From Alteromonadales bacterium alter-6D02 (GTDB lineage Bacteria; Pseudomonadota; Gammaproteobacteria; Enterobacterales; Psychrobiaceae): a stretch of 64,000 nt of DNA. Below are positions 36,047-63,596 of the stretch, one piece after another; the stretch's first letter is position 1; the number at the start of each line of letters is the position of its first letter. The DNA is taken from positions 1 through 64,000 of the forward strand of contig PIZK01000027.1 of the NCBI GenBank assembly GCA_002835545.1. The letters run 5' to 3'. The translations under genes were made by a program, and so were the position numbers. A model generated the notes under the pieces. That model saw only the letters and a program-made list of their open reading frames with translations. It was not told the origin of the DNA and did no database searches.

Positions 36047-36105
36047 AATTTACTAGATTTCCGATTTACAATTGAGTTGACAGGATAGTACCATTTATTA
36101 ATCGA

Positions 36106-36811: not shown

Positions 36812-36821
36812 AGCAGTTACA

Positions 36822-36998
36822 TTAGCGTTTAGGGTTGTCTGTTTTATTAGACGATGTGTCGTCTTCATCAAATAGGATATTTGAACCTTGACGGTCTAAA
36901 TCTTCAAACTGGTCACTCTTGACTGCCCAGAAAAAGAAATAAATCGCAATAACGACGATGATCAAAGCAACAGGGATTAAAAGTAGAATAATATTCAT
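36822..36998 (-). CDS. ccoS: Cbb3 oxidase maturation protein CcoS
   Basis: 58 aa, below usual ORF cut-offs. The sequence starts MNIILLLIPVALIIVVIAIY, a single TM helix, followed by FWAVKSDQFEDLDRQG, the hallmark of CcoS/FixS. It is needed for cofactor insertion into the cbb3 oxidase. Its ATG overlaps the ccoI stop (ATGA), the standard ccoI-ccoS coupling. Confidence 0.93.
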   Translation of the reverse strand: MNIILLLIPVALIIVVIAIYFFFWAVKSDQFEDLDRQGSNILFDEDDTSSNKTDNPKR

Positions 36999-39394: not shown

Positions 39395-39402
39395 TGTGTC
39401 AC

Positions 39403-39894
39403 CTAACGATCAAATGAATCTAAAAGTGTATCTATCGATGATGGATAGGTGTCAACCGTTTGAATGCGCCAATGACCATCAAATGACTCGAGTTGTACGG
39501 TCCATTTCCCTTGTAATGGTTTCTCTAATGCAAGGGTGTAATCACCACTACCATTAGCGGTAATCATTTGTTCAAAATCTTTCGCTTCTTGAGTACGGTG
39601 AATAAATCGTACTTTTAGTGCTGCCGTCTGAGGCTCACCGAACGTTTGTTTAACTGTTAAGCTATCATCAGTGACTGTTAAGCGGAATTTAAGTGCAAGC
39701 TTGTACGCATTTTCTAGTCGCGTTAAATCTACGTCAATGGCTTTACCTTTCTTATAGTAGTCTTCAACAACCATATCCGGTTTGTTGTCGATGGCTATAA
39801 AGAGGGTAGTGACACTTGCAACTACTGCGCATCCAGGAAGGAAAATTAAGACCCAAGGCCAGAACTGTTTATACCAAGGTTGAATCGTTTCCAC
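39403..39894 (-). CDS. ccoH: Cbb3 oxidase assembly protein CcoH
   Basis: 163-aa FixH family protein: one N-terminal TM helix (PWVLIFLPGCAVVASVTTLF), then VEDYYKKGKAID, the usual FixH motif, and a periplasmic beta-sandwich. It stabilises the cbb3 assembly intermediate. First gene of ccoH-ccoI-ccoS, separated from ccoP by a terminator. Confidence 0.93.
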   Translation of the reverse strand: METIQPWYKQFWPWVLIFLPGCAVVASVTTLFIAIDNKPDMVVEDYYKKGKAIDVDLTRLENAYKLALKFRLTVTDDSLTVKQTFGEPQTAALKVRFIHRTQEAKDFEQMITANGSGDYTLALEKPLQGKWTVQLESFDGHWRIQTVDTYPSSIDTLLDSFDR

Positions 39895-39974
39895 AAAAAC
39901 TCCAATGTTTAAATTTATATTTGTTAACTTATACTTATGTAAGTAAAAGCTAATAGAAATAAACTTATAACAAA

Positions 39975-40001
39975 AATAAGGCTCCTTTACGGAGCCTTAT
40001 T
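39975..40001 (-). terminator. Terminator between ccoP and ccoH
   Basis: AATAAGGCTCC and GGAGCCTTATT form an 11-bp stem with a 5-base loop and a T-run on the minus strand, ending the ccoNOQP transcript. Confidence 0.9.
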
Positions 40002-40020
40002 GATAATTACCCGAAGATAA

Positions 40021-40971
40021 TTATTTATTAGATAAGCTGTAAACGTATGCAGAGATAACGTGAACTTTGTCATTACCTAAAATGTCTTGCCAAGCTGGCA
40101 TTACGCCGGCACGACCGTTTGCAACTGAATCAGTAATCGCAGCAGTAGAACCGCCGTATAACCAAATGTTATCAGTTAGGTTAGGTGCACCCATCATTTG
40201 GTTACCAGAACCGTCAGCACCGTGACAAGCCATACATAAACCAAACTTAGCTTGACCTGCAGCTGCTTGCTTAGCATTAACTTTACGGCCACTTAAACTA
40301 CGAACGTATGCAACAACTTCTTCAACACCTTGGTCGCCGCCTAACGCGTCTTTCCAAGGCATCATGCCAACAGCCGTACGACCGATCATGATAGATTCTT
40401 TGATTTTATCAAAGCTACCACCATATAACCAATCTTTATCAGACAGGTTAGGGAAGCCGTGTTGACCACGAGCATCACTACCGTGACACTGAGCACAGTT
40501 TTGAATAAATAGGCGTTGACCTACTTTCAGTGCTTCAGGATCTTCTAGTAATTCTGCTACTGGCTTAGCTGCATAGTTTGCGTACGTTTTACCGTAAACT
40601 TCATCAGCAATTTGCATTTCCGCGTTGTACTGAACGATATCACCGTCTTCAATAGACTTTTTAATCGCTGCGCGAGATTCTTCTAAAGAATAGACTTCTT
40701 TATTTGCACTCTTCCAATCTAGTACACCACCAAAGTTTGCTAATCCGTATATCGCAAGGTAGCCAAGGCCCCATACGATACTGATTGCGAACATAATGGT
40801 CCACCATTTTGGTAGCGGATTATTGATTTCTACAATGCCGTCAAAGCTATGCGGCATTTCTTCGCCTTCTTTACCCATAGTATCAACGATAACCATGCGT
40901 AAAAGGTAGGCACTGCCCAAGATCACAATCAATGTACCGATGATGATCCATGCACTCCAGAAGGTACTCAT
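40021..40971 (-). CDS. ccoP: Cbb3 oxidase subunit III, dihaem cytochrome c CcoP
   Basis: 316 aa. Two N-terminal TM helices (about residues 7-27 and 57-76), with the FixP-type HSFDGIVEINNPLPKWW segment between them, then two class I cytochrome c domains with CAQCH and CMACH haem sites and GMMPWKD / GVMPAWQD Met ligands. It passes electrons from soluble cytochromes c to CcoO. Its ATG overlaps the ccoQ stop (ATGA). Confidence 0.96.
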   Translation of the reverse strand: MSTFWSAWIIIGTLIVILGSAYLLRMVIVDTMGKEGEEMPHSFDGIVEINNPLPKWWTIMFAISIVWGLGYLAIYGLANFGGVLDWKSANKEVYSLEESRAAIKKSIEDGDIVQYNAEMQIADEVYGKTYANYAAKPVAELLEDPEALKVGQRLFIQNCAQCHGSDARGQHGFPNLSDKDWLYGGSFDKIKESIMIGRTAVGMMPWKDALGGDQGVEEVVAYVRSLSGRKVNAKQAAAGQAKFGLCMACHGADGSGNQMMGAPNLTDNIWLYGGSTAAITDSVANGRAGVMPAWQDILGNDKVHVISAYVYSLSNK

Positions 40972-41144
40972 TTGGACTCTTCTCCTGCTATTTTATTGTC
41001 ATGATTTTGTTCATCAGCAAATACAAGATTTGCTGCTTCATCGAATGACTTTTTGCGGCGTGAGCTATATGCCCAGGCGTAAATGCCGATAAACAGAATC
41101 AGCATTCCCACCGTTGATATGCCACGAAATGTAGCGTAATCCAT
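40968..41144 (-). CDS. ccoQ: Cbb3 oxidase subunit IV CcoQ
   Basis: 58 aa, missed by length cut-offs. It starts MDYATFRGISTVGMLILF and has one TM helix followed by YAWAYSSRRKKSFDEAA, the FixQ/CcoQ pattern. It stabilises the CcoP interaction. It lies between ccoO (eight bases upstream) and ccoP (4-base overlap). Confidence 0.95.
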   Translation of the reverse strand: MDYATFRGISTVGMLILFIGIYAWAYSSRRKKSFDEAANLVFADEQNHDNKIAGEESK

Positions 41145-41152
41145 GGGAACTC

Positions 41153-41767
41153 CTATTTTAAGTTAGTGCCAAGTGATTGTAGGTAAGCAACAAGTGCTTC
41201 AAGCTCAGTTTTACCTTTAACGGCATCTGTAGCCCCTGCAATATCAGCATCAGTATATGGAACGTCGAAGCTATTCTTGAAGATAGATAACTTCTTAGGC
41301 GTTAATTCGCCGTCTAATTTGTTCTCAGCTAACCAAGGGAAGCCAGGCATATTAGACTCAGGAACAACCGCACGTGGGTCGATTAAATGGGCAACATGCC
41401 ATGCATCGCTGTAGCGACCACCAACACGAGCCAAATCTGGACCGGTACGCTTAGAACCCCATAAGAATGGGTGATCCCATACTGATTCACCAGCTAATGA
41501 GTAATGACCATAACGCTCAGTTTCGTGACGGAATGGACGGATCATTTGCGAGTGACACTGAACACAACCTTCACGAATGTAGATATCGCGGCCTTCAAAC
41601 TGCAATGCAGTTAACGGCTTCATACCTTTCATTGGCGTGTTAGTTTCTTCTAAGAATAACTGTGGTGTAATTTCAACTAACGTACCGAAACTAATCGCTA
41701 CGATAGCTAGTACACCTAATAGGCCAGCATTCTTTTCAACTGCTTCATGATTTAATTTTTTAAACAT
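41153..41767 (-). CDS. ccoO: Cbb3 oxidase subunit II, monohaem cytochrome c CcoO
   Basis: 204 aa. N-terminal TM anchor (about residues 16-36), then the haem site [12 protein letters not shown], with [15 protein letters not shown] and the distal Met in [10 protein letters not shown]. It relays electrons from CcoP to CcoN. Second gene of the operon, twelve bases after ccoN. Confidence 0.96.
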
Positions 41768-41779
41768 TTCAGCGACCCC

Positions 41780-43204
41780 TTACAATGCTTGCTTTTCAGT
41801 TAGTGAACCTTTAGGCGCTTGGATAGTTTTGATCACGTTGTATAACATGATAACCATACCAGCTACGAAGAACACACCACCGATAGTACGCATTAAGTAG
41901 AATGGGTAAGATGCTTGTAACGACTCAACGAAACTATAAGTTAATGTACCGTCAGCGTTAACAGCACTCCACATCAAGCCTTGCATTACACCAGAAATCC
42001 ACATTGCAACAATATACAATACAGTACCGATGGTAGCTAACCAGAAGTGAGTGTTAATTAATTTTGTGCTATACATTTGGGTGTTGCCGTATAGACGTGG
42101 AATCATGTGGTATAAAGCACCAACAGATACCATAGCAACCCAACCAAGTGCACCAGAATGTACGTGACCAACAGTCCAGTCAGTGTAATGCGATAGAGCG
42201 TTAACTGTTTTAATCGCCATCATTGGACCTTCGAAGGTAGACATACCGTAGAAAGAAAGTGAAACGATTAAGAAACGTAGAATAGGGTCAGTTCGTAGCT
42301 TATGCCAAGCACCAGAAAGTGTCATGATACCGTTAATCATACCACCCCAAGAAGGCGCGAATAGAATAACAGACATAACCATACCTACAGTTTGCGTCCA
42401 ATCAGGAAGCGCTGTGTAGTGAAGGTGATGTGGGCCAGCCCAAATATATAATGCGATAAGGGCCCAGAAGTGAACAATAGATAAACGGTAAGAGTATACT
42501 GGACGCTCAGCTTGTTTTGGTACGAAGTAGTACATCATACCTAAGAAACCAGCCGTTAGTAGGAAACCTACGGCATTGTGACCGTACCACCATTGCACCA
42601 TTGCATCGGTTGCACCACTGTAAACAGAGTAAGATTTCAACCAATCTACAGGTATAGCTGCACTATTTACTAAATGTAAAATAGCAACAACTAAGATGAA
42701 TGAACCATAGAACCAGTTAGCAACATAGATATGTGATGTCTTACGTTGGAATAACGTTCCGAAGAAGTTAATCGCGTAGGCAACCCATACGATGGTGATA
42801 AGGATATCAATTGGCCATTCTAGCTCAGCGTATTCTTTAGACGAGGTATAACCAAGTGGTAAAGTTACTACTGCAGATATGATTACTGCCTGCCAACCCC
42901 AAAAGGTAAAGCTTGCGAGTTTATCGCTAAACAGTCTTGTTTGACATGTGCGTTGAACAACGTAATAAGACGTTGCAAAGAGGGCGCTAGTACCAAATGC
43001 AAAAATTACTGCATTAGTATGTAGCGGACGTAAACGGCTAAAGGTTAACCACGGTGTATCAAAGTTTAATTGTGGCCAGTATAGCTGTGCTGCGATAAAT
43101 ACACCTACTGTCATGCCGATAATACCCCAAATTACTGTGGTAATAGCGAACTGACGAATAACAGTGTAGTTATAATCAGCGTGTGATGGACTAGTGTGAG
43201 TCAT
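41780..43204 (-). CDS. ccoN: Cbb3 oxidase catalytic subunit I CcoN
   Basis: 474-aa haem-copper oxidase core, about twelve TM helices, reducing oxygen to water at high affinity. Metal-site His residues are visible in [11 protein letters not shown] (low-spin haem), [20 protein letters not shown] and [15 protein letters not shown] (CuB), and [10 protein letters not shown] (haem b3). First gene of ccoNOQP; a perfect FNR box lies about 170 bp upstream, so expression should rise when oxygen falls. Confidence 0.97.
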
Positions 43205-48262: not shown

Positions 48263-50641
48263 ATGTTCTACCTCACAGTGCTGGCAACAGCAATGAATGT
48301 TGCAATGAATACGCCACCGACGCCAGGGGCACAAACCCCAGCACAAGAAGTCATCAAAGTGACTGGTCAAACCCCGTTAACAAATGACCAACAAGGTCCT
48401 TACCTTCTTGGCGTGGCGCAAAAGATAACCGCTGAAGAGATTGAACGTTCAAACGCAAAAACACTGACACAACAATTAAAGAATACGCTCGTTAGCGTAA
48501 ATATTAATGATGTTCAAAACAACCCGTTCCAGCCTGATGTTCAATACCGTGGATTTACTGCCTCACCATTGTTAGGCTTACCGCAAGGTATATCTGTCTA
48601 TCTAGATGGCATCCGCTTTAACGAACCTTTTGGTGACACCGTTAACTGGGATCTGATTGCACTAACCGCCATTGATAATGTTACTTTATACTCAGGATCG
48701 AACCCTGTTTTTGGTCAAAACACCCTGGGCGGCGCTTTAGCTTTATCTGTTAAAGATGGTTTCACTTATGATGGTCATGAATTATCGGCGCAAGCGGGTA
48801 GCTTTGGAGAGAAACAGCTTAATGTGCAAAGTGGTGGTACGAGTGGAAATTGGGGCTACTACCTTAACCTAAACCATTATGAAGAAGATGGTTGGCGAGA
48901 TGGCTCTCCAAGTGAGGTAAAGCAATACTTAGCAAACCTCAGCTATAAAACAGATGATTTAACCGCTGATTTATTGTTTGCAACCAACAATAATACCATG
49001 ATCGGTAATGGTACTGTGCCAATCGAACTGCTTGAGCAGGAGTCTTCAACAGCAATCTACACACAGCCGGATCAAACGAAGACCAACTTGAACATGCTTG
49101 GCTTGAATATCACGGCAGCGTTAACAGAGGATTCTTCATTGGCGGTCAATGCATATTATCGCAAAAATGAAATCAGCAGCATTAATGGCGATGACAGTGA
49201 CTATGATGAATGTGAATTTGGAACAGCTGTTACACTATGTGAAGGTGAAGACGACGATGATGATGAAATCGATGGTATTGAGTCACACGGCGATGACGAT
49301 GATGAGGGTGAAGAGATAGAGCCTGTTCACTTTGTTGGCTATAACGAAGGACAGTATTTATCAGACATCATGCCAGCACTCGATGCTGATGATATAGACG
49401 GTACTTATAATACGGGGGCCACTGATAATGAAAGCTTTGGCTTTAGTGCGCAATTAGTTACCCAATGGGGTAATGGCCATGAATTAATTATTGGTGGTGG
49501 TGCAGATAAAGCTGATATCTCATTTGCAAGTGACACGCAATTTGCTATTTTACATAATGATACAGCAGAAGATGACCGAAGCGTTACACCGATACCCGGC
49601 CTGTTTGATCAAGAATCAACGGTTCGTTTAGATACTGAGACTACACAGTATTATTTTTATCTAGCCAACCGTTTTAAATTAGCTTCTGATTTACATTTAG
49701 ACATTGCTGGTCGTTATCATGACTCAAACATCCTGATGAATGATTTAATTGACGACGGTGAAGGCTCTTTAGATGGTGATCATGATTTCTCACGTTTTAA
49801 TCCTGCGATTGGTTTAAGCTACCAAATCTCACCACAATTGACGGCTAAATTAAGCTACAGTGAGTCATCTCGTAACCCTAGTCCAGCAGAGTTGAGCTGT
49901 GCCGACGAAGACGATCCTTGTAAGCTACCTAATGGTTTTGTTTCAGATCCTCCGCTAAAACAGGTAGTGGTAAACACCGTTGAATTGAGTTTATTGGGTA
50001 AAGACGATAATTTAAATTATGGAGTAACGTTCTTTAGTACACAAAGCCAAGACGATATCATCTTTCAACAAGCCGGAGAGCACCCAGCTCGCGGTTACTT
50101 TGTCAATATTGATGAAACACAGCGTCGTGGTGTCGAGCTATCTGCAAGCTATCGCGGTGAGAGCTTTGATATTACCTCAAGCTATAACTATCTAGATGCG
50201 ACATTTGAATCTCCATTTGTTTCATTTAGCCCAGTTAATCCGTTAGGACCAAACCGTCAAGTGAGTCCAGGTGATACAATACCTGGGCAACCTCAGCATC
50301 AAATCAAATTAATTGGTCAATACCAAGCAACTGAAAGTTTCGATATTGGTTCTGAGCTTAGTTATGCATCTGAAAGCTATTATCGTGGAGATGAGGCTAA
50401 CGAGAACCAGCAAATTGGTTCACATACCGTGGTTAATTTATTTGCAAATTATCAAATTACCCAACAACTCGCGTTAGAATTACGGGTTGATAATGTGTTT
50501 GATCGCCAATACTTCACTTTTGGCGCATACGGTGAAGCAGATGAAGTATTAGAAAATGTCTACCCTGATATTGAAGACCCGTATTTTGTTGGACCAGCAA
50601 AACCAAGGTCAGTATCTGTAGAATTAAGCTACCAGTTCTAA
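48263..50641 (+). CDS. TonB-dependent outer-membrane receptor with acidic loop
   Basis: 792 aa. A short signal-like N-terminus, a possible TonB box (EVIKVTG), a plug domain (about residues 45-170, with VYLDGIRFNEPFGDTVNWD and GQNTLGGALALSVKDG), then a 22-strand barrel ending in a typical SVELSYQF. Residues 327-354 form an extreme acidic loop with 19 Asp or Glu in 28 positions, right after a Cys pair (ECEF...LCEG); a second acidic Cys loop is CADEDDPC. Such loops suit capture of hard cations. The position at the head of the PQQ-dehydrogenase island and the shared upstream motif suggest import of lanthanide, calcium chelate or PQQ. The ligand is inferred. Confidence 0.88.
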   Translation: MFYLTVLATAMNVAMNTPPTPGAQTPAQEVIKVTGQTPLTNDQQGPYLLGVAQKITAEEIERSNAKTLTQQLKNTLVSVNINDVQNNPFQPDVQYRGFTASPLLGLPQGISVYLDGIRFNEPFGDTVNWDLIALTAIDNVTLYSGSNPVFGQNTLGGALALSVKDGFTYDGHELSAQAGSFGEKQLNVQSGGTSGNWGYYLNLNHYEEDGWRDGSPSEVKQYLANLSYKTDDLTADLLFATNNNTMIGNGTVPIELLEQESSTAIYTQPDQTKTNLNMLGLNITAALTEDSSLAVNAYYRKNEISSINGDDSDYDECEFGTAVTLCEGEDDDDDEIDGIESHGDDDDEGEEIEPVHFVGYNEGQYLSDIMPALDADDIDGTYNTGATDNESFGFSAQLVTQWGNGHELIIGGGADKADISFASDTQFAILHNDTAEDDRSVTPIPGLFDQESTVRLDTETTQYYFYLANRFKLASDLHLDIAGRYHDSNILMNDLIDDGEGSLDGDHDFSRFNPAIGLSYQISPQLTAKLSYSESSRNPSPAELSCADEDDPCKLPNGFVSDPPLKQVVVNTVELSLLGKDDNLNYGVTFFSTQSQDDIIFQQAGEHPARGYFVNIDETQRRGVELSASYRGESFDITSSYNYLDATFESPFVSFSPVNPLGPNRQVSPGDTIPGQPQHQIKLIGQYQATESFDIGSELSYASESYYRGDEANENQQIGSHTVVNLFANYQITQQLALELRVDNVFDRQYFTFGAYGEADEVLENVYPDIEDPYFVGPAKPRSVSVELSYQF

Positions 50642-51024: not shown

Positions 51025-51813
51025 CTACCGTCTACCACCTGATTTAGGACTAAAGCTTGCAAGAGCAAGGACAACAACAACGCAAGTGATTGGGATTAAC
51101 ACCATCAAAGTATCGGTATTAGCCTGCTCGTAGAGAGCGAACCGTAATAACTCGACACAGTAACTAAACGGATTGTAATGACAAATCCAGTATAACCACA
51201 AACTAGCTTCTTTCATTTTCCATAAAGGGTAAAGCGCACTGGATAGAAAAAACATTGGAAAAATAACAAAGTTCATCACGCCAGCAAAATTCTCTAATTG
51301 CTTAATGAGGTTTGATAGCATAAGCCCTAAAGCACCCAAAAATAGTGCAATTAAAAAGACAGCAGGGATAGCTGTTATATAACCCATAAAATCGATTTCA
51401 ACATCGACCAATTGGGCAAGTGCTAAAAAGATGTAGACTTGGATTAATGATAACAGCGCGGTCGCAAAGACCTTACAGAACAGCAAAAAAGGGCGGGGCA
51501 GTGGACTCATTAGTAAAACTTTCATACTTCCCATTTCTCTGTCATAGACCATAGACAGTGAGCTTTGCATTCCATTGAACAAGATAATCATGCAACACAA
51601 ACCAGGTGTAATGTAAGTTTGATAGGTAATATAAGTTCCATAAGGCTCCATGATGGAAACACCAAGCGCAGCCCTAAAACCAGCAGCAAAGACGACAAGC
51701 CAAAGCAGCGGTCTGATTAACGCACTGAGTAATCTGGTGCGTTGTTGGAAAAAACGGTGCAATTCACGTGATACGATCCCAAGAAAAGCGACATAGTAAT
51801 GTGACAGGTTCAT
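51025..51813 (-). CDS. ABC transporter permease of the PQQ-alcohol system (PedC type)
   Basis: 262-aa ABC-2 type permease with six TM helices. Segments VSRELHRFFQQRTRLLSALIRPLLWLVVF, YITYQTYITPG and DREMGSMKVLLMSPLPR fit ABC2 membrane proteins, including those found beside PQQ-dependent alcohol dehydrogenases in Pseudomonas (ped cluster). Last gene of a four-gene minus-strand operon: binding protein, propeller, ATPase, permease. ABC-2 folds usually export. In Pseudomonas putida the related transporter was reported to matter for lanthanide-dependent growth, so the true direction is open. Confidence 0.85.
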   Translation of the reverse strand: MNLSHYYVAFLGIVSRELHRFFQQRTRLLSALIRPLLWLVVFAAGFRAALGVSIMEPYGTYITYQTYITPGLCCMIILFNGMQSSLSMVYDREMGSMKVLLMSPLPRPFLLFCKVFATALLSLIQVYIFLALAQLVDVEIDFMGYITAIPAVFLIALFLGALGLMLSNLIKQLENFAGVMNFVIFPMFFLSSALYPLWKMKEASLWLYWICHYNPFSYCVELLRFALYEQANTDTLMVLIPITCVVVVLALASFSPKSGGRR

Positions 51814-51827
51814 ATAAAGCTCATTTG

Positions 51828-52568
51828 CTATATTTTATTGAATGCAAAAGCATCGGTTAACGCTGCGTATAATGCTTGCACATCATTCACTGCATACTGG
51901 GCTAAAAGTGTTGAGACTTGGCCTTGCTGTGCTACTCGCCCTTGGTTAAGCATGATCAAATAATCACTTGCGTTAATTTCATCAAGTAAATGTGTTGTCC
52001 AGAGCACAGCTAAACCCTCTTGCCTTACACATTGACGTAAGTAGTTGATGATCATGTGGCGACTTGGGTTATCAAGACCCACACTGGCCTCATCAAGTAA
52101 GAGTACTTTTGGTTTATGTAATAATGCTCTGACTAGCTCAACACGACGCCTATGACCGCCATTTAAACTTCGCACTTTGTCACCTAAACGAGATGATAGT
52201 TCAAACTCTTCAAGTAACGGCATAACGTTAGACAGGGATTGTTTTGCACTTAACCCATGTAAAGCGCCGTGATATACCAAATTTTGTTTAATTGATAAGT
52301 CCAAATCTAGGGTTGATTGTTGAAAAACAACCCCGAACAATCGCATTACTTTCGCAGTTTCTTTTTCAAGGTCAAAGCCATCGCAAAGAATGTTCCCGGA
52401 ATCGACTTTAGTTAATCTAGTTAACAAGGAAATCAGAGTACTTTTACCCGCTCCGTTAGGGCCAAGTAATACATTGAAACCAGGCTTGATCGCAAAGGTT
52501 ACTTTATCTAGGGCCTTTTTCGGACCATAATTGAAACTAATTTGATTGATTTCAAGTGTTGCAGTCAT
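51828..52568 (-). CDS. ABC transporter ATP-binding subunit of the PQQ-alcohol system
   Basis: 246 aa. Walker A is GPNGAGKST, the Q-loop lies in GVVFQQSTLD, and Walker B is VLLLDEASVGLD. The signature motif reads LNGGH followed by RRRVELVRALL instead of LSGGQ, which as I recall is a trait of this PQQ-associated subfamily. It energises the permease encoded 14 bases downstream. Confidence 0.9.
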   Translation of the reverse strand: MTATLEINQISFNYGPKKALDKVTFAIKPGFNVLLGPNGAGKSTLISLLTRLTKVDSGNILCDGFDLEKETAKVMRLFGVVFQQSTLDLDLSIKQNLVYHGALHGLSAKQSLSNVMPLLEEFELSSRLGDKVRSLNGGHRRRVELVRALLHKPKVLLLDEASVGLDNPSRHMIINYLRQCVRQEGLAVLWTTHLLDEINASDYLIMLNQGRVAQQGQVSTLLAQYAVNDVQALYAALTDAFAFNKI

Positions 52569-52582
52569 CTAAGTTCACCCCG

Positions 52583-53581
52583 TTATTTGCTTAGTTGACG
52601 GATTGCCACACCCCAAGGATAACGACCTACTTTGACAGAGCGAATAACCTTCTGCTTGGCTGTATCTATAACCGAAACATCGCCACTAACCCCATTCGTT
52701 GTCAGTAATAAAGACTGATCATGATTAAATGCAAGTTGCCAGACCCGACGGCCTACTAGGAGGTACTTAGTGACTTCTTGTGATTTAGTATCGATGATAG
52801 CGACATGGTTCGCTGGACCTAACGCAACATAAACAAAACGCTCGTTAGCCGTTAATTTAATCCCAACAGGTTGAATTCTATCTTTATGAATACCGTTAAG
52901 AGCAAAGTTGAATTTTTTAATAATTTTTTTGCTTGCGACATCAATTAACGAAACTGTACCACCAATCTCCGAGCTGACCCATAATTGAGAACCATCTTTG
53001 GTAAACTCTGCAGCACGAGGGCGCGAATCAACAAGTGTATTGGCAATATTAGTGTTTGTTTTGGTCTCTATCCAATGCACCATGTTAGTGGTCTCGGAGG
53101 TCACAATAGCAAGACTTCCATCTGGGCTTACAGCCAAGCCTTCAGGTTCTACACCAACGTCAACCTGACCAATAACACTACGTGATTCAATGTCAATGAT
53201 AGTCATCAATGCATCATCTTCATTGGCAGTATAGATTATCTTACCATGTGGGTGTAATGCGATAGTCTCAGGGTCAGCGCCAGAGGGCAGCTCTCCAATA
53301 ACTTGATCTGTCGCTAAATCAAGAATTTGTACGGTATCTGAATCACTAGCGCAAATATAAGCGAGAGTTTGCTCTTTATTGAAAATAATTCCCCTAGGAC
53401 GAAGACCAACTGGGATTTCTTTAACCACATCTAAACTAGCAAGATCAATTACTGAAATGTTGTTATCTTTTTCATTAGTGACATAAGCTAGCTCGGCACT
53501 GTGGGCTGCAAAGCTTAATAAGGCAAGCGCAAGACAACCAGATAATTTAGTTGTAATAGTATGTGAGATTTTATTAATCAT
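52583..53581 (-). CDS. YVTN beta-propeller protein of the PQQ-alcohol system
   Basis: 332 aa. Signal peptide (ending AAHSAEL), then seven YVTN/NHL-like blades (LAYVTNEKDNNISVIDLAS, GRRVWQLAFNHDQSLLLTTN and others), each about 42 residues, forming a periplasmic propeller. Known in PQQ-dependent catabolic clusters as an associated protein without assigned activity. I start at the ATG at 53581, eight bases after AAGGA; the longer frame begins with TTG at 53602 and lacks a ribosome site. Confidence 0.85.
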   Translation of the reverse strand: MINKISHTITTKLSGCLALALLSFAAHSAELAYVTNEKDNNISVIDLASLDVVKEIPVGLRPRGIIFNKEQTLAYICASDSDTVQILDLATDQVIGELPSGADPETIALHPHGKIIYTANEDDALMTIIDIESRSVIGQVDVGVEPEGLAVSPDGSLAIVTSETTNMVHWIETKTNTNIANTLVDSRPRAAEFTKDGSQLWVSSEIGGTVSLIDVASKKIIKKFNFALNGIHKDRIQPVGIKLTANERFVYVALGPANHVAIIDTKSQEVTKYLLVGRRVWQLAFNHDQSLLLTTNGVSGDVSVIDTAKQKVIRSVKVGRYPWGVAIRQLSK

Positions 53582-53592
53582 TGAGGGAGTCC

Positions 53593-54825
53593 TTATTGAC
53601 AAGTAGATTCTTTGTGATCGAAACCGAGTGTGTCAAGTTCCGTGACCGGGTGCAACATTCCTGCTTGTGGTGACTGCGAAATAAGTGCATTAGGTTGAAC
53701 AAGTGCTATTGGCATACGAAGTTGCTGGCTCCACGGACGGTATGAGAGTTTTCTACCTAAATACGCCGCCAATTCAAATTGATCTGATTTAATATGCCCC
53801 AATAACTTTGCAGGATCTGCTGAATTAGTTTTTGTAAGGGCTGATGCTAAAGTACGAATAGCCAAGTATCCGCTAAAGTCGACTTCATTCATTGCTCTAT
53901 TAGCAAGTTTAATAAAACGGTTTTGTAATTGCGTTGCTCCCCATTGTTCGATATTGCGATGCCAACCTAATGCTTCTAGCCCAGCAGAGCCAATCACAGG
54001 GCGCGGTAGGTAGGTATTAAATGGTAAATATTGAGCAAAGTCTTTATGTTTATCAGCGACAAATACAACATCATAATCTTTTCTTGTCTGGGTAAATAAA
54101 GGCATCTCTGCCCCGGCGCTACGACGTAAATCTGAATCAAAGTCCCAAGTTTTCTCTTTAATTAATTTGATCCCATAACGTTTTGCTGCACGTTTAAATG
54201 AACCTGTTAATTGCTTATCTTCTTCACGTTGACCTGTAACAACGAGCACGTCATTAAAGCGCCTTTTCAACAACCATTGAGCAAGGGCATCATTCTTCAT
54301 TGCGTAACTCGCAATGGTGTGTAACGTGTTGCTACTGCATTGTTGTTGTCGAAAAAAGTCATCTTGAAGGTTTATATTAAATAATATAACGGGCTTATCG
54401 CTTGCCCATTCTCTGGCAAGCTTTAAGCTGGCACGAGATAACTCGACTACAAAAAAACGACTACCTTGACTAAATTGCTGCTCTAAAGTAGAGATGATAG
54501 TTTGAGGTGTACTTATATCAACTTTATTTAATACTATCTTCTGATTTAAGAACTTGCCGGTGGTATTAGAATCATTAACGCCAAGTGTTGAACCCATAAA
54601 GCCACTGTCACTAGCAGGTTTAACCAAATTTGACAGCGTCGCGATAACAGGCTGTTTTTCTTTGATATAATCGACATCAAGGACGAGTTGTTCAGCAGAG
54701 ATAGGGATCAAAACAGATAAAACGGTTACGCACAGCGATGTTAATTTCGCAGGCTTGAATAAAATAGATAGTTTAGGCGCTGGTATAGCTGTAAATTTGG
54801 CTGCAAATTGTTGAAAATATTTCAT
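53593..54825 (-). CDS. Periplasmic binding protein of the PQQ-alcohol ABC system
   Basis: 410 aa. An N-terminal hydrophobic segment (LTSLCVTVLSVLIPISA) is a signal peptide with a long basic lead, followed by a type I periplasmic-binding fold similar to branched-chain amino-acid or amide binding proteins (ILFNINLQDDFFRQQQC, DVLVVTGQREEDKQLTGSF, DYDVVFVADKHKDFAQYL). The C-terminal part includes an INLDFSGYLAIRTLA-like helix (VDFSGYLAIRTLASAL). First gene of the minus-strand operon, diverging from the cytochrome gene across a motif-bearing promoter. The ligand is unknown. Confidence 0.8.
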   Translation of the reverse strand: MKYFQQFAAKFTAIPAPKLSILFKPAKLTSLCVTVLSVLIPISAEQLVLDVDYIKEKQPVIATLSNLVKPASDSGFMGSTLGVNDSNTTGKFLNQKIVLNKVDISTPQTIISTLEQQFSQGSRFFVVELSRASLKLAREWASDKPVILFNINLQDDFFRQQQCSSNTLHTIASYAMKNDALAQWLLKRRFNDVLVVTGQREEDKQLTGSFKRAAKRYGIKLIKEKTWDFDSDLRRSAGAEMPLFTQTRKDYDVVFVADKHKDFAQYLPFNTYLPRPVIGSAGLEALGWHRNIEQWGATQLQNRFIKLANRAMNEVDFSGYLAIRTLASALTKTNSADPAKLLGHIKSDQFELAAYLGRKLSYRPWSQQLRMPIALVQPNALISQSPQAGMLHPVTELDTLGFDHKESTCQ

Positions 54826-55072: not shown

Positions 55073-55513
55073 ATGAACAAGTCGTCACTAAAAAACAAAA
55101 TATTTGCAGCTATGATCTGTGCAACACCATTTTTAGCATCAGCACACGGTGATGTAACGCCTCAATCGATTGATACATCGACTATCCCACAATTAGGGAC
55201 AGAGTGGGAAGAAACTAACCCTTACCGTGACCAAACAGGAAAAATGTTAGACGAAATTACTCGCATTGGTTCATCTGCTTACACGCAAAACTGTGCACGT
55301 TGTCATGGCTTGGAAGGTATTTCTGGAGGAATCGCACCTGACCTAAGAATGTTACCAGCAGACTATGATGGCGATGAATGGTTCGTTTACCGTGTTCAAA
55401 ACGGTGCTGTACGAAATGGTGCTGTTTATATGCCTAAAATGTCAGAACACCTTAGTCAAGAAGCACTTTGGGCAATTAGAACTTGGTTAGAGTCTGTAAG
55501 TGTTGCAGAGTAG
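55073..55513 (+). CDS. Cytochrome c (PedF/c550-like)
   Basis: 146 aa with a signal peptide (ending FLASAHG) and one haem site CARCHGLEG; the distal Met is likely in VYMPKMSEHLS. It is the probable direct electron acceptor of the quinoprotein alcohol dehydrogenase, as cytochrome c550 (ExaB/PedF) is in Pseudomonas. Its 3' end overlaps the next gene by 14 bases, so the two are coupled. Confidence 0.88.
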   Translation: MNKSSLKNKIFAAMICATPFLASAHGDVTPQSIDTSTIPQLGTEWEETNPYRDQTGKMLDEITRIGSSAYTQNCARCHGLEGISGGIAPDLRMLPADYDGDEWFVYRVQNGAVRNGAVYMPKMSEHLSQEALWAIRTWLESVSVAE

Positions 55514-56378
55514 AACTATATTATTGATAGCACTTCTAGTCGTAAGTGCTATTAGCAGTTTAGCGCAGGGTCGAACCTACGACGATATTATTGAAACTAA
55601 GCAGCTCATAGTTTCGGTGTATCGTGATTTTGCGCCTTTTTCATTTGAAAAGGACGGTAAAGCGCACGGTATCGATGTTGATATAGCTAAGCAGATTGCT
55701 AAGTCTCTGAACGTTGAACTTACTGTGCGTTTTACAACGGCCGACGAGAGTGTGGAAGATGATTTGAGAAACACCTTATGGAAGGGAGATTTTCAAACTA
55801 AAACCAAAAGCGACTTAATGATGCGCGTTCCTTATGATCGTGACTATTCACAGATGCGTGATGATATTGGTGAGTTGGTTCATGATAGAGTGCACATGTT
55901 TGCTCCTTATCATACTGAGTCTTGGCAAATTGCATTTAATAAAAATAAGATAGAAGAAGTGTCTACCATGGCGGTTTTTCAATACCATGATATTGGTGTT
56001 GAAGTTGATACCGTCCCGGCGTTTTATCTTACTGGTGCATTTCGAGGAACCATGACTAAACACACTCATCATTACCCAAATATCCGCTTGGCGCGCGATG
56101 CGATGCTCGCTGAAGAGGTCGATGCAATCATGGGATTGCGCAGTGAAGTCAGTCACCTGTTAGTGGAACAACCTGCTAACTTTGAACTAGCGACTAATGC
56201 ATTCCCTCTAATCGGTCGTCAACAATGGGATATTGGCATGGCAGTAAAAAGTGATTATCGCCAACTGAGTTATGCTATCGGTGATGTTGTTACTGAAATG
56301 GTAAAAAATGGCCAAATGGCTCGGATATTTGAGCAGTATGGTTCCATTTATCAACAGCCAACTTACTACAACCCATAA
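55500..56378 (+). CDS. Quinoprotein-associated periplasmic binding protein (PedG/MoxJ-like)
   Basis: 292 aa, GTG start overlapping the cytochrome gene. Signal peptide (ending SSLAQG), then a type II periplasmic-binding fold of the amino-acid-binding (SBP family 3) shape: LIVSVYRDFAPFSFEKDGKAHGIDVDIA, DIGVEVDTVPAFYLTG, QWDIGMAVKSDYRQLSYAIG. These proteins accompany methanol and alcohol PQQ dehydrogenases (MoxJ, XoxJ, PedG). Work on XoxJ suggests they help activate the apo-dehydrogenase rather than import a solute. Confidence 0.85.
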   Translation: MLQSRTILLIALLVVSAISSLAQGRTYDDIIETKQLIVSVYRDFAPFSFEKDGKAHGIDVDIAKQIAKSLNVELTVRFTTADESVEDDLRNTLWKGDFQTKTKSDLMMRVPYDRDYSQMRDDIGELVHDRVHMFAPYHTESWQIAFNKNKIEEVSTMAVFQYHDIGVEVDTVPAFYLTGAFRGTMTKHTHHYPNIRLARDAMLAEEVDAIMGLRSEVSHLLVEQPANFELATNAFPLIGRQQWDIGMAVKSDYRQLSYAIGDVVTEMVKNGQMARIFEQYGSIYQQPTYYNP

Positions 56379-56677: not shown

Positions 56678-58441
56678 ATGATAAGTGCAGGTAAAACAAA
56701 GCTAAAAGCAGTAGCCGCTGTAATTGCTTTTACATTAGCAGCAGGTGCTAATGCAAAAGTAACAGATAAAGACATTATTAATGACCAAGCCACAACTAAC
56801 GATGTTGTATCAAATGGTTTAGGTCCTCGAGGGCAGCGCTTTAGCCCATTAACCCTAATTAACACTAAAACTGTAAAAGACATGCGTCCAGTATGGGGTT
56901 TTTCACTTGGTGGTGAGAAACAACGTGGTCAAGAGTCTCAACCAGTTGTTAAAGACGGTGTAATGTATATTACCGGTTCTTACTCACGTGTTTACGCAAT
57001 TGATGCAATTACAGGCGACGAGTTATGGCAATATGACGCACGTTTACCTGATGGCATCATGCCTTGTTGTGACGTTATCAACCGTGGTGTTGCACTTTAT
57101 GATGATTTAGTTATCTTCGGTACACTTGATGCAAAATTAGTCGCACTTAATAATAAGACAGGTAAGACTGTTTGGAAGAAAAAAGTAGAAGACTATAAAG
57201 CTGGTTACTCAATTACAGCAGCACCAATTGTTGTAAAAGGTAAAGTAATCACAGGTGTATCAGGTGGTGAATTTGGTATCGTTGGTAAAATTCGTGCGTA
57301 TGATGCAAAGACTGGTCAAATTGCATGGGAACGTCCAACAGTTGAAGGTCACATGGGTTATATCTGGAAAAACCGTAAGAAAATGGAAAACGGTATTTCA
57401 GGTGGCGAAGCTGGCAAAACATGGACTGGTGACTTATGGAAATCAGGTGGTGCTGCTCCGTGGCTAGGTGGTACATACGATCCAGAAGTTGATTTATTAT
57501 TCTTTGGTACAGGTAACCCAGCTCCATGGAACTCTCACTTACGTCCTGGCGATAACTACTTTTCTTCATCACGTCTAGGTATTGACCCTGACACGGGTAA
57601 AATTAAATGGCATTTCCAAACCACACCACATGATGGTTGGGATTACGACGGTGTAAACGAACTTATTCCATTTAACTACAAAGACGGTCGCAAGACAGTT
57701 AAAGCGGCGGCAACAGCTGATCGTAATGGTTTCTTCTATGTATTAAACCGTGAAAATGGTGATTTCATCCGAGGTTTCCCGTTTGTTGATAAGATCACTT
57801 GGGCTAAAGGCTTAGACGACAAAGGTCGTCCGATATTTAACGAGCCAGTTCGCCCTGGTAACCCAGCATTAAGTAAAGACGGTAAGAAAGGTTCTACTGT
57901 ACTTGCTGCACCTTCTTTCTTAGGTGGTAAAAACTGGATGCCTATGGCTTATAGTAAGGATACAGGGTTATTCTATGTTCCTTCTAACGAATGGGAAATG
58001 GATATCTGGAATGAGCCAACAGCATACAAAAAAGGTGCTGCTTACTTAGGTGCTGGTTTCACTATCAAATCAATTAACGAAGATTACATTGGTGTGTTAC
58101 GAGCCATTGACCCTAAAACGGGTAAAGAAGTTTGGAACCATAAGAACTACGCGCCATTATGGGGCGGTGTATTAGCGACAGCGGGTAATCTAGTATTTAT
58201 GGGTAACCCTGAAGGGTACTTAATGGCCTTTAATGCTAAGACTGGTGAAGTTGAATACAAGTTCAACACTGGCTCAGGTATCGTTGGTTCTCCAATCACT
58301 TGGAAAATGAATGGTGAACAATACGTGTCAATCTTATCAGGCTGGGGTGGTGCAGTTCCACTTTGGGGTGGTGAAGTTGCTAAGCGTGTTAAGAGCTTTA
58401 ACCAAGGTGGCATGGTTTGGACTTTCAAACTGCCAAAATAG
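56678..58441 (+). CDS. PQQ-dependent alcohol dehydrogenase, predicted lanthanide type
   Basis: 587 aa with a signal peptide (ending GANAKV); an eight-blade quinoprotein propeller that oxidises primary alcohols in the periplasm. PQQ-site marks: the adjacent-Cys disulfide in [10 protein letters not shown], blade motifs such as [12 protein letters not shown], and the Trp-docking repeats. Predicted metal ligands are Glu198 (GGEFG), Asn280 (TGNPAPWN) and the catalytic Asp322 in GWDYDG. Asp324, two residues on, is the extra carboxylate that distinguishes XoxF/ExaF/PedH-type lanthanide enzymes from calcium MxaF/ExaA (Ala or Ser there). The C-terminus ([12 protein letters not shown]) fits the ethanol-dehydrogenase branch. 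Own promoter with island motif; terminator after. Confidence 0.92.
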
Positions 58442-58585: not shown

Positions 58586-58601
58586 TCCTACTAAGGTATG
58601 A
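58586..58601. promoter_or_regulatory. Island motif, copy 4 (before the aldehyde dehydrogenase)
   Basis: TCCTACT-AA-GGTATGA, 13 of 16 identical to copy 3; its core TAC-TAAG-GTA is itself a dyad. It ends 143 bp before the aldehyde dehydrogenase start. Confidence 0.55.
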
Positions 58602-58744
58602 TGTTTTCCGTGCCAAGGGAGCATAGGTTTAACCAACACACTCACACTACTATTAATAAAACAAAAACGTTTGCGCTAGCAAACATATTACAACTAAAGC
58701 TACTTGGTATAAAATTCAAGTTAGCACTTTTATTGAGGTGTTCT

Positions 58745-60265
58745 ATGATCTATGCATATCCTGGCAGTGAAGGTTCTGTCGTTACTTTTAAACCACGTTA
58801 TGAAAACTTCATTGGCGGTGAGTGGGTTGCACCAGTAAACGGTAATTACTTTACCAATTCTACGCCAGTAACGGGCGAAGCATTTTGTGAAATCCCTCGT
58901 TCGTGTGAAAAAGACATTGAGCTAGCACTAGATGCTGCACACGCTGCAAAAGATGCTTGGGGCAAAACCTCTGTAGCAGAACGTTCAAATATCTTATTAA
59001 AAATTGCTGATGCAATCGAAGCTAACCTAGAAACGCTTGCTGTTGCAGAAACTTGGGATAATGGTAAAGCTGTTCGTGAAACATTAGCTGCTGATGTTCC
59101 ACTATGTGTTGATCACTTCCGCTACTACGCTGGTTGTATCCGTGCTCAAGAAGGCACACTTTCTCAAATCGATGATGACACTGTTGCTTACCACTTCAAC
59201 GAGCCGCTAGGTGTTGTTGGTCAAATTATTCCTTGGAACTTCCCATTACTAATGGCCGCTTGGAAACTGGCTCCAGCTTTAGCTGCCGGTAACTGTATCG
59301 TATTGAAACCTGCTGAACAAACACCAGTAAGTATTCTTGTTTTTGCTGAGATTATTGCAGATATCTTACCAGCGGGTACATTAAACATTGTTAATGGATT
59401 TGGTCGTGAAGCAGGTGAAGCATTAGCAACTAGCACTCGTATTGCGAAAATTGCATTTACAGGCTCTACTCCTGTAGGTAGCCACATCTTAAAATGTGCT
59501 GCTGAAAATCTAATCCCATCAACTGTTGAATTAGGTGGTAAGTCTCCTAATATCTACTTCAACGATGTTGTTGCTCACGAAGATGATTACCTAGAGAAGT
59601 GTGCTGAAGGTTTCGTTCTTGGTTTCTTTAACCAAGGTGAAGTATGTACCTGTCCATCTCGTGCATTAATTCAAGAAGACATCTTTGAAGAATTCATGGG
59701 ACACGTTATCGCTAAAGCTAAGAAGATTGTTCGTGGTAACCCACTTGATACAGAAACTATGGTTGGTGCTCAAGCTTCTAAAGAGCAATTCGACAAGATC
59801 ATGGGATATCTACAAGTTGGTGTTAACGAAGGCGCTGAAGTATTAACTGGTGGTGATAAAGAAACACTAGGTGATTCTTTCGATACTGGTTATTACATCC
59901 AACCGACTATTCTTAAAGGTAATAACTCAATGCGTATCTTCCAAGAAGAAATTTTTGGTCCAGTTATCGCTGTAACAACCTTTAAAGATGAAGCTGAAGC
60001 TCTAGAAATTGCAAACGATACAGCATACGGCCTAGGTGCTGGTGTATGGACTCGTGATACAAACAAAGCTTACAGAATGGGTCGTGGTATTGAAGCTGGT
60101 CGTGTTTGGACTAACTGTTACCATCTATATCCTGCTCACGCTGCATTTGGTGGCTACAAGAAATCTGGTATTGGTCGTGAGACTCATAAGATGATGCTTG
60201 GTCATTACCAACAAACTAAGAACTTATTAGTTAGCTACAGCACAAGCCCGTTAGGTTTCTTCTAA
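58745..60265 (+). CDS. exaC: NAD-dependent aldehyde dehydrogenase, ExaC type
   Basis: 506-aa cytoplasmic aldehyde dehydrogenase. Nearly every segment follows Pseudomonas ExaC/acetaldehyde dehydrogenase: [21 protein letters not shown] start, the general base Glu in VELGGKSPN, the catalytic Cys in [15 protein letters not shown], and the [14 protein letters not shown] end. It oxidises the aldehyde made by the PQQ enzyme to the acid (acetaldehyde to acetate if ethanol is the substrate). The start is the ATG at 58745 after GAGGTG; the longer frame would include the island motif. The NosR-like gene follows 34 bases later. Confidence 0.95.
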
Positions 60266-60299: not shown

Positions 60300-62390
60300 A
60301 TGCTGATTAATTCATTGAAAAGCATAGTAGGGCTTTTTCTGTTTTTAATAATCTCATTAGCCCAACCAGCAATCGCTTTTGTTGGAGAGCAGGGCGTAGT
60401 TACTACAATCCCCGTTGATGTTAAACAAGCATTTCCTAGCGCGACACGAGTAAAACGCGTCGAAAAAAATCCAAACATAACTGGTGTCTACCAGTTGAAC
60501 GAACTCATTGGTTATACTTTCGAGTCAGATCATTTTACCAATTTCATCGGTTTTTCCGGTAAAACAATAAACTTGTTTATTGCCCTTGATCCTCACGGGG
60601 TGATAACCAGTATCAAAGTGCTAGACCACCACGAACCCATTTTTATTCATGGGCTTGGTGAAAGGCCTATGATTCAATTTATCAAACAGTTTGAATCGCA
60701 TTCAATCAAAGAGCGCTTTATAGTTGACGCTCGAGACCGTCAGATGAAGGATGTGACTCACATTGATGGCGTAACAAAAGCGACAGTCTCAGCATTAGTG
60801 ATTAATGATACAATTATCGCGTCAGCGCTTAAAGTTGCTCGTACGATGCTCGAGGGTTTTGCACCTTTGAGTACAAAAGTTCTAGATGAAAACCTTTTCG
60901 AACCCTTGTCTTTCAACCAATTAGTCGAACGTGGAATGGTCGCTCACTGGTCATTGGCCAAGCAGGACACTATTCAAGCGTTTTCACACCTAGCTCAACC
61001 ATTAAGTGATTATGATGACGCTGGGCCTCTCATTGACCTATACATAGCTCCGATCACTGTTCCCATCGTTGGCAGAAACATTTTAGGTGATAATGAGTAT
61101 CGACGTTTAATTGATAGTATTGCGCCTGGCAGCAGTGCTTTAATGGTCATCGATAATGGAGAGTATGGCTTTATTAGTGATGATTTTATCCCCCAAACGG
61201 CGCCTGAGCGTTTTAAAGTAGGGCAGTCAGGGTTGCCACAAGATAGCCGAGATATCGATTTTTATAGTTTTAACGACCCATTTTTTAATAGCCCTTTGCC
61301 AATTCACAAGCGTTTGAAAGTATTAAACATCAAGTCTCAATCTGGATTTGAACTATCATCGCCAATAAATTTTGCTGTTACAGTTGATTATAGCCAATCA
61401 TTTTTAGTTAAAAATACAGAACACCTCACCTTTGATTTCACTTTACCTGATTCACTGTTTGTTGAGAATGCGGCTGCTCTTGAACCAAAACAACAACCGT
61501 TATGGCTGAAGTTATGGCAACAGCGCTGGTTGGAAGTCGTTATCACTATCCTCTACTTAGCTTTTGTCACGTTTATATTTTTAAACCCTGATAGATTTAG
61601 CACTAATACAACGATTAGGGTTTTGAACATCACCATTCAGGTACGTCATATTGCCTTGTGCTTCGTGATTGCGGTGATTGGCTTTTATAGCCAAGGTCAG
61701 CTTTCAGTCGTAAATATATACACATTGTTCCTTTCCATATATCAGGGATTTAATATAGAGGTATTCTTACTAGACCCTATTATTTTCATTCTTTGGTTGT
61801 TTGTATTTATTGCTACGATTTTATGGGGAAGAGGTGTTTTTTGCGGTTGGCTATGTCCGTTTGGTGCTTTACAAGAGTTTGCCACCACATTGGCCACTAA
61901 ACTAAAAATTAAGCAATATAAAATAAAACCTCACCACCATCAACGTGCTAGAGCAATCAAGTACATTCTTTTGCTTGGACTTGTTGGCAGTGCTTTTTAT
62001 TCGCTAACCCTTGCTGGTCAATTAGCTGAAGTTGAACCGTTCAAAACGGCTATTACTTTATACTTTGTGCGCTATTGGCCCTTTACAGTGTATGCAATTA
62101 TCCTTGTAATTCTGAGTTTAAAAATTCATAAGTTCTACTGTCGTTATCTATGTCCTTTAGGGGCTGGCTTTGGAGTACTTGGTCGTTTCCCGTTGCTTAA
62201 ATGGATACGCAGACGTCAAGAATGCGGCAATCCTTGCCAACTCTGCCAAAGCAAAAAATGTGGCATAGATGCTATTAATAAAACAGGAAGTATCAATTAC
62301 AGTGAATGTATTGGGTGTTTCGATTGTGTTGTAACCATCAACGACCCTAAGTTGTGTGTGATTGATAAATATAAGAAGAGAGTTAAATAG
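60300..62390 (+). CDS. NosR-like membrane flavo-iron-sulfur protein
   Basis: 696 aa, built as NosR: signal peptide (ending QPAIAF), periplasmic FMN-binding domain (about residues 70-185) with DGVTKATVS, whose Thr162 fits the ApbE flavinylation site, then about six TM helices from residue 410. A polyferredoxin with CGWLCPFG and CRYLCPLG loops in the membrane part and a C-terminal [4Fe-4S] region (CGNPCQLCQSKKCG, CIGCFDC) completes it. NosR proper serves nitrous oxide reductase; no nos gene is here. In this island it probably moves electrons across the membrane for the alcohol system or for PQQ/metal maturation. Co-transcribed with exaC. Confidence 0.8.
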   Translation: MLINSLKSIVGLFLFLIISLAQPAIAFVGEQGVVTTIPVDVKQAFPSATRVKRVEKNPNITGVYQLNELIGYTFESDHFTNFIGFSGKTINLFIALDPHGVITSIKVLDHHEPIFIHGLGERPMIQFIKQFESHSIKERFIVDARDRQMKDVTHIDGVTKATVSALVINDTIIASALKVARTMLEGFAPLSTKVLDENLFEPLSFNQLVERGMVAHWSLAKQDTIQAFSHLAQPLSDYDDAGPLIDLYIAPITVPIVGRNILGDNEYRRLIDSIAPGSSALMVIDNGEYGFISDDFIPQTAPERFKVGQSGLPQDSRDIDFYSFNDPFFNSPLPIHKRLKVLNIKSQSGFELSSPINFAVTVDYSQSFLVKNTEHLTFDFTLPDSLFVENAAALEPKQQPLWLKLWQQRWLEVVITILYLAFVTFIFLNPDRFSTNTTIRVLNITIQVRHIALCFVIAVIGFYSQGQLSVVNIYTLFLSIYQGFNIEVFLLDPIIFILWLFVFIATILWGRGVFCGWLCPFGALQEFATTLATKLKIKQYKIKPHHHQRARAIKYILLLGLVGSAFYSLTLAGQLAEVEPFKTAITLYFVRYWPFTVYAIILVILSLKIHKFYCRYLCPLGAGFGVLGRFPLLKWIRRRQECGNPCQLCQSKKCGIDAINKTGSINYSECIGCFDCVVTINDPKLCVIDKYKKRVK

Positions 62391-62603: not shown

Positions 62604-62627
62604 AAAGGCTACTTCTGTAGCCTTTTT
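62604..62627 (+). terminator. Attenuating stem-loop between pqqA and pqqB
   Basis: AAAGGCTAC-TTCT-GTAGCCTTT plus two further T residues. Probably a partial terminator that sets the ratio of pqqA to the enzyme genes. Confidence 0.75.
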
Positions 62628-62678
62628 ACCCTCCATTTTATCCTCAATTAAAATCACAACAAACGAGTATAAATAGCT

Positions 62679-63596
62679 ATGAAGATATTAGTTCTCGGAT
62701 CAGCTGCAGGTGGTGGATTTCCTCAATGGAACTGCCACTGCGCTAATTGTAAGGGCCTTAGAGAAGGCACTATAAAAGCAACACCTCGTACCCAGTCTTC
62801 AATTGCCGTTAGTCTTGATGGTAAAGATTGGGTGTTAATTAATGCATCCCCCGATTTAAGACAACAAATCAATCAGTCTCCACAGTTGTGGCCAGAAAAC
62901 CAAACACGTGGGACCAATATTCGTGGAGTCTTACTCTGTGATAGTCAGGTCGACCACACCACTGGGTTGTTAACTTTACGAGAAGGTCTACCACTCGATG
63001 TATATTGTACTAAAGAGGTACATCAAGATTTATCTACGACTTATCCCCTTTTTAACATGTTGTCTCATTGGCATGGGGGTCTTAGTTACAAGACAATAGG
63101 GACAGATCATACTCAAGCGTTTACTGTAACTGGTGTCAGTGGGCTAAGTTTTTATCCTGTTGTGCTAGAAAGTAATGCGCCGCCTTACTCAACGTATCGT
63201 GATGCCGTTGTCGATGGTAATAATATCGGACTAAAGATTGTCGACGAGAAAACCGGTAAATGGCTATTTTACGCACCTGGTATTGTTGAAACAAACCCAC
63301 TAGTGGAACAAATGTTAGATGGGGCCTCTTGTGCGCTTATTGATGGCACGTTATGGCTTGATGATGAAATGATCAGTCAAGGCGTTGGCGAAAAACTAGG
63401 GAGTGAAATGGGACACATGCCAGTTAATGGAGAGTTTGGTTCTGTATCATTGTTAAATCGATTTAACATTGATCGCAAAATTTTGATACATATCAATAAC
63501 ACCAATCCCATTTTGAATGAAGATTCTAAAGCACATCAATACGTTATTGAGAACGGTGTCGAGATTGCCACCGACGGTCTAGAAATCACGATTTAA
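62679..63596 (+). CDS. pqqB: PQQ biosynthesis protein PqqB
   Basis: 305 aa, normal length. Metallo-beta-lactamase fold with the PqqB zinc site GGFPQWNCHCANCKG near residues 13-27 and CDSQVDHTTGLLTLREG around 89-105. It is an iron-dependent hydroxylase acting on the Glu-Tyr derived diamino acid during PQQ synthesis, according to recent work. pqqC starts 12 bases after its stop. Confidence 0.96.
   Translation: MKILVLGSAAGGGFPQWNCHCANCKGLREGTIKATPRTQSSIAVSLDGKDWVLINASPDLRQQINQSPQLWPENQTRGTNIRGVLLCDSQVDHTTGLLTLREGLPLDVYCTKEVHQDLSTTYPLFNMLSHWHGGLSYKTIGTDHTQAFTVTGVSGLSFYPVVLESNAPPYSTYRDAVVDGNNIGLKIVDEKTGKWLFYAPGIVETNPLVEQMLDGASCALIDGTLWLDDEMISQGVGEKLGSEMGHMPVNGEFGSVSLLNRFNIDRKILIHINNTNPILNEDSKAHQYVIENGVEIATDGLEITI

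Follow-up and report, generated by a model that had tools for sequence, protein, structure and literature searches.

The reading frame at positions 60300-62390 of the window, i.e. of the whole stretch of 64,000 nucleotides analysed, encodes a NosR-like membrane protein. It forms part of a separate branch whose flavin signature was found only in bacteria with lanthanide-type PQQ alcohol dehydrogenase (PQQ-ADH), and so it probably serves that system as a dedicated redox partner. Judged by alignment and phylogeny, this exa type is a NosR-like subfamily distinct from the NosR of nitrous oxide reduction. For the function of the protein, delivery of electrons to the periplasm for maturing or maintaining the dehydrogenase was favoured, with a probability of roughly 0.45.

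The gene starts at 60300, 34 bp after the end of exaC (60265), and 131 bp separate it from pqqA, in agreement with the position given in the initial annotation. The features of the neighbourhood are the following:

48263..50641, forward strand: TonB-dependent receptor, possibly for a lanthanide or lanthanophore (two relatives have homologues in this neighbourhood)
51025..51813, reverse strand: ABC-2 permease PedC (TIGR03861, 448.8 bits, cut-off 241)
51828..52568, reverse strand: PedA-like ABC ATPase (homologues at the equivalent place)
52583..53602, reverse strand: YVTN beta-propeller protein, member of the ABC module (annotated counterparts at the equivalent place; homologues adjoin TIGR03863)
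53593..54825, reverse strand: ABC substrate-binding protein of the PQQ-ADH system (TIGR03863)
55073..55513, forward strand: cytochrome c550 PedF (TIGR04494, 193 bits, cut-off 122)
55500..56378, forward strand: PedG/MxaJ-like periplasmic binding protein (family search)
56678..58441, forward strand: lanthanide-type PQQ alcohol dehydrogenase (WDYDG with D322 and D324; vicinal Cys130-131)
58598..60265, forward strand: ExaC aldehyde dehydrogenase (NF050026, 955.7 bits, cut-off 900)
60300..62390, forward strand: NosR-like flavin/Fe-S membrane protein of the exa ('KATxS') subfamily, 696 aa
62522..62593, forward strand: pqqA, 23 aa (read from the sequence)
62679..63596, forward strand: pqqB (TIGR02108)

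The true start of ExaC is probably near 58745, since the NF050026 match begins at residue 54. Beyond pqqB follow pqqC, pqqD, pqqE and the genes of an M16 protease, a FIST protein and a histidine kinase. Between exaC and the NosR-like gene, the consensus scan found promoter-like sites not above chance and listed no terminator-like site. A hairpin followed by a T-run (AGGCTACTTCTGTAGCCTTTTT), not listed by the scan, was present at 62604-62630 between pqqA and pqqB, and it is likely an attenuator allowing excess pqqA. On the reverse strand at 35315-43204 there is a cbb3 oxidase cluster with CcoN, CcoO, CcoP, FixH, a CcoI-like P-type ATPase, a CcoH-like and an Fnr-like protein, the names being read from the sequences alone, with no space for ccoG between CcoP and FixH; the oxidase is a possible terminal acceptor for PedF.

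The D-x-D motif has been taken as diagnostic for lanthanide use by PQQ-ADH (PMC11996626), and the window ADH has it in the form WDYDG, as in the lanthanide-dependent type 2b enzymes (PedH/ExaF). The divergent set of TIGR03863, YVTN and ABC-2 proteins was taken as the counterpart of PedA1A2BC, the lanthanide transporter of P. putida (PMC12997753). Because of the D-x-D motif and this transporter-like set, the system reads as lanthanide-type. Thus the PQQ alcohol-oxidation operon of the initial annotation stands, and its exa/ped label should read 'lanthanide-type PQQ-ADH operon' instead of the textbook Ca2+ exa system. A D-x-D ADH was present in every carrier of the NosR-like protein whose ADH was read. 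The literature search, with most subscription journals outside its coverage, found no paper tying a NosR-like protein to lanthanides, and a search combining lanthanide with polyferredoxin or 4Fe-4S binding gave no matches. Lanthanide-type alcohol oxidation has been reported to be abundant in the ocean (PMC11996626).

The frame of the NosR-like gene is intact. It matched FMN_bind (PF04205, 26.9 bits, cut-off 22) and Fer4_5 (PF12801, 69.3 bits, cut-off 22), and its best family match, the NosR model NF046105, aligned to residues 40-686 and scored 561.6 bits, below its curated cut-off of 1000, so that the protein is called NosR-like and not NosR. No solved structure matched it in the sequence search. 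The following parts were located, all on the forward strand:

60324..60380: N-terminal hydrophobic signal or anchor helix, residues 9-27 (hydropathy)
60555..60806: FMN_bind domain, residues 86-169 (PF04205)
60765..60794: predicted flavinylation motif DGVTKATVSA, residues 156-165
60783-60785: predicted flavin acceptor Thr162, within DGVTKATVSA
61842..61859: CxxxCP motif 1, CGWLCP, residues 515-520
62139..62156: CxxxCP motif 2, CRYLCP, residues 614-619
62223..62357: eight-cysteine C-terminal stretch, predicted to hold two [4Fe-4S] clusters on the cytoplasmic side

Thr162 and the Fe-S motifs were thus found intact, as initially annotated. Both CxxxCP motifs and the eight C-terminal cysteines (642, 646, 649, 654, 670, 673, 676 and 686) were conserved throughout the family, and a search of the family alignment for decayed or missing redox sites found none. 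Hydropathy and charge, including a positively charged C-terminal tail, suggest a signal helix, a periplasmic part (residues 28-409), TM helices numbering about five and, on the cytoplasmic side, the Fe-S tail, a layout matching that of NosR (PMC7660919).

Alignment of the flavin sites distinguished two types, which separated without exception among the proteins examined. The site of the exa type, from PQQ-ADH organisms, reads D-G-[VI]-[TSA]-[KRM]-[AG]-T-[VA]-S, and that of the NosZ- or NirS-linked proteins [ST]-G-A-T-[VI]-T; variants were DNVSKATVS in the G555 copy and SSATVT in one NosZ-linked row. The window protein has TKATVS in place of the NosR motif [ST]GAT[VI]T. The exa subfamily is recognised by the diagnostic residues K160 and S164, and F85, F115, P302 and Q465 are further group-specific residues. 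In the maximum-likelihood tree all exa-type proteins were placed to one side of a branch with 100/100 support and a length of 0.79; this is compatible with a single origin, which is unproven because the root was set at the midpoint.

When the proteins were sorted by flavin motif and the neighbourhood was checked second, 17 of the 23 distinct KATxS proteins (a count that leaves out row L226, a repeat of L163) had PQQ-ADH genes in their stretch and none had nosZ or nirS. The remaining six had no PQQ-ADH in the stretch, yet came from genomes with PedF/lanthanide-ADH. The 63 GAT[VI]T proteins included 53 with nosZ, seven with nirS and none with PQQ-ADH, and 16 additional rows checked later were all of the GAT type; nosZ was present in the stretch of 15 of them, and the other came from a short contig. 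Such a survey of gene neighbourhoods had been proposed in the initial annotation.

Also the genome surveys connected the protein with the alcohol dehydrogenase system. The order was covered by 395 genomes; eight had an exa-type NosR (a closely related protein, at least 43% identity), and precisely these eight had PedF above the cut-off (Fisher p ~1e-16, computed without lineage correction). In seven of them the gene was clustered with the ADH/PedF genes; in the carrier G214, exaC adjoins the NosR-like gene and the remaining genes lie about 14 kb off. Among 369 genomes of the class, all eight KATxS carriers belonged to the 16 PedF genomes (p ~2e-12). In five of them (G555, G538, G737, G695 and G454) the stretches seen showed no PQQ-ADH genes linked to the NosR-like gene, and adjacency is therefore not the sole basis of the co-occurrence. 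Altogether, PedF was present in 15 of 15 whole-genome carriers. The Methylorubrum and Variovorax loci were found through the NosR search; five alphaproteobacterial loci were chosen through the PQQ_ABC_bind search and therefore give no independent evidence for the link. In three roseobacter plasmids (L208, L209 and L212) a set of genes for a xanthine-dehydrogenase-like molybdenum enzyme lies between the NosR-like/apbE pair and pedF. A single search of genome contigs with the lone protein as query gave two distant matches only. An obligate pair of the NosR-like protein with PedA1A2BC, in analogy to NosR with NosDFY, was dropped, as a near-full-length PQQ_ABC_bind match was obtained in 19 class genomes and only eight of these have the exa-type NosR.

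Covalent FMN on the NosR-like protein is predicted from the motif. The initial annotation had proposed a search of the genome for apbE, and two ApbE genes were found, neither linked to the NosR-like gene and one directly after nqrABCDEF. The NosR of P. stutzeri is also served by an unlinked ApbE (PMC7660919). The FMN transferase gene apbE adjoins the NosR-like gene in Methylorubrum pME152, Variovorax, Phaeobacter, Pseudosulfitobacter, Tateyamaria, Shinella and strain SC52.

In the favoured mechanism, ApbE would attach FMN to Thr162, presumably the NQR-linked ApbE here and, in alpha- and betaproteobacteria, an ApbE dedicated to this task. The electrons would come from the quinol pool or from a donor in the cytoplasm, and by way of the cytoplasmic [4Fe-4S] clusters they would cross the membrane and arrive at the periplasmic FMN. 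The FMN would then reduce something required for maturation or continued activity of the dehydrogenase; candidate targets are the vicinal disulfide of the ADH, a mis-bound metal, or PQQ that is blocked or oxidised. PedF would remain the exit route for the alcohol electrons. A dehydrogenase would in this way receive the service that NosR gives to its periplasmic enzyme, upkeep of a redox state in which the enzyme works. The initial annotation had offered two functional options, outward delivery of electrons and their withdrawal from alcohol oxidation. Both stay candidates, and the retained PedF, the conserved cytoplasmic Fe-S clusters and the energetics of the flavin favour delivery over export.

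In electron export, the periplasmic FMN would take electrons from the ADH or PedF and pass them to the quinone pool, replacing cytochrome c or acting beside it. This was judged unlikely, if still a serious candidate. It has been proposed in print: Meheust et al. (2021, eLife, PMC8238504) described clusters of NapH-like proteins with the ethanol oxidase ExaA from 172 genomes, which by their inference arose independently several times. In their proposal the flavoprotein carries the electrons of the alcohol oxidase to the respiratory chain, where others use cytochrome c. The window protein combines PF12801 with an FMN-binding domain and has an ExaA-family ADH two genes upstream, as in those clusters, and the proteins of Meheust et al. 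very probably are the same group. The two sets share the NapH-like and FMN domains and the link to ExaA, but the flavoprotein was there given the role of cytochrome c, whereas the window family keeps PedF; the window family also has lanthanide-type ADH, an often unlinked apbE and a diagnostic motif. The initial annotation was right in describing a polyferredoxin of NosR-like type, probably flavinylated, with a tie to a PQQ operon that lacks nosZ; the tie had already been reported by Meheust et al.

Export also agrees with the NosR-like gene sharing an operon with the dehydrogenase. The presence of PedF in every whole-genome carrier indicates that the cytochrome has not been replaced, and the cytoplasmic Fe-S clusters would have no obvious use in transfer from PQQ to quinone. 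The redox potentials of PQQ and c550 are about +90 mV and +280 mV, respectively. The ApbE-type FMN domain of another protein was measured at -184 mV (PMC10339131), far below both, so that ADH would have to pass its electrons uphill to reach FMN. This value belongs to that other protein, however, and in the window protein the potential could be higher owing to Lys160 next to the flavin. The cluster on a Variovorax boronicumulans plasmid (L176), where a high-potential iron-sulfur protein stands beside the ADH and no PedF is present in the stretch, is the one case seen in which replacement of the cytochrome may be real, and it leaves export as an option for some lineages.

A metal-handling reductase for lanthanide acquisition or metallation, acting on Fe(III) or Cu(II) from a lanthanophore or a mis-metallated ADH, or on Ce(IV), is distinctly less probable than delivery to the dehydrogenase. 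The carriers have D-x-D ADH and mostly also the PedA1A2BC-like lanthanide transporter, and iron interferes with the lanthanide system (PMC12997753). Against this, the ABC module was frequently found without the NosR-like protein. Ln(III), Ce and Eu excepted, is not known to be reduced biologically, which also speaks against such a reductase. A redox sensor or regulator of the operon, the role in which NosR was first described, is improbable. NosR does affect nosZ transcription (PMC7660919), but the cluster already has a FIST protein, a histidine kinase and a LuxR-type regulator, and the full conservation of the flavin and Fe-S sites suggests electron transfer.

The reading as an ordinary NosR whose nitrous oxide reductase is encoded elsewhere, suggested by the NosR model being the best family match, is refuted for the genome as assembled, in which family searches found nosZ of neither clade, and by the separate clade and flavin motif of the protein. 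Within this genome the NosR-like protein matched only itself, with no second NosR homologue. Three congeners (G004, G005 and G008) hold both types, the exa type beside the PQQ-ADH genes and a second, canonical NosR directly before nosZ. The initial annotation had named two findings that would speak against its proposal, a nosZ operon just beyond the window using the gene and a scattered phylogeny without association to PQQ genes; neither applies, since the genome lacks nosZ and the tie to PQQ-ADH is evolutionarily conserved.

Of the known systems, NosR (Pseudomonas stutzeri, Paracoccus; NF046105) shares with the window family the full domain order, the periplasmic flavin domain, the CxxxCP motifs, the TM helices, the two C-terminal [4Fe-4S] sites and the ApbE partner. 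It differs in identity (31-38%, the window protein remaining below the NosR cut-off) and in having GAT[VI]T and NosZ as partner, in contrast to KAT[VA]S and PQQ-ADH. The NirI-type proteins beside nirS are 42-47% identical to the window protein over about 300 residues of the C-terminal membrane/Fe-S half, but have the flavin motif GATIT and the nirS neighbour and group with NosR in the tree. Four such NirI-like proteins of 500-580 aa (L108, L107, L103 and L109) stand before nirS, with a membrane half close to the window protein and a NosR-type flavin motif.

The quinoprotein relay of a SoxYZ-like carrier and a SoxH-like hydrolase (TIGR04557 and TIGR04558; PP_2677/PP_2678) is likewise a PQQ-ADH accessory, of putative function, accompanying ADHs with vicinal cysteines and found in PedF genomes without the NosR-like protein, but its proteins are unrelated to the NosR-like protein. 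Disulfide formation, cofactor stability or PQQ protection have been suggested as its roles (PMC12997753). The SoxYZ-like carrier was above the cut-off in seven of the eight PedF genomes without the NosR-like protein, the eighth being borderline, and in five of the 15 carriers. Strict mutual exclusion was rejected, as these five hold both. The complementarity had a p-value of 0.008 over 29 genomes, including the closely related order genomes, and of 0.14 in the class sample alone, because of which it is a weak lead only. The genomes of two loci, L163 (G657) and L159 (G737), have the exa-type NosR together with the SoxYZ-like/SoxH relay beside PedF and are useful for the question of redundancy. 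That lanthanide-dependent ADHs need reductive upkeep by a flavin/Fe-S membrane protein fed with quinol or cytoplasmic electrons, the SoxYZ-like/SoxH relay being an alternative solution, is a speculative generalisation that we hold to be rather doubtful.

The association of NapH-like proteins with ExaA is, in general form, already published (Meheust et al. 2021). What is new here is the motif at the flavin site, the connection with lanthanides, the co-occurrence also without linkage and the weak complementarity with the SoxYZ-like/SoxH relay. As a motif of a few residues separates the subfamily from nitrous-oxide NosR, automatic annotations as 'NosR/NirI' and the N2O reduction inferred from them can be corrected. 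An overlooked, conserved electron-transfer protein is now placed in lanthanide-type alcohol oxidation, and it offers a genetic handle on the maturation of lanthanide-type dehydrogenases and on the place of the SoxYZ-like relay.
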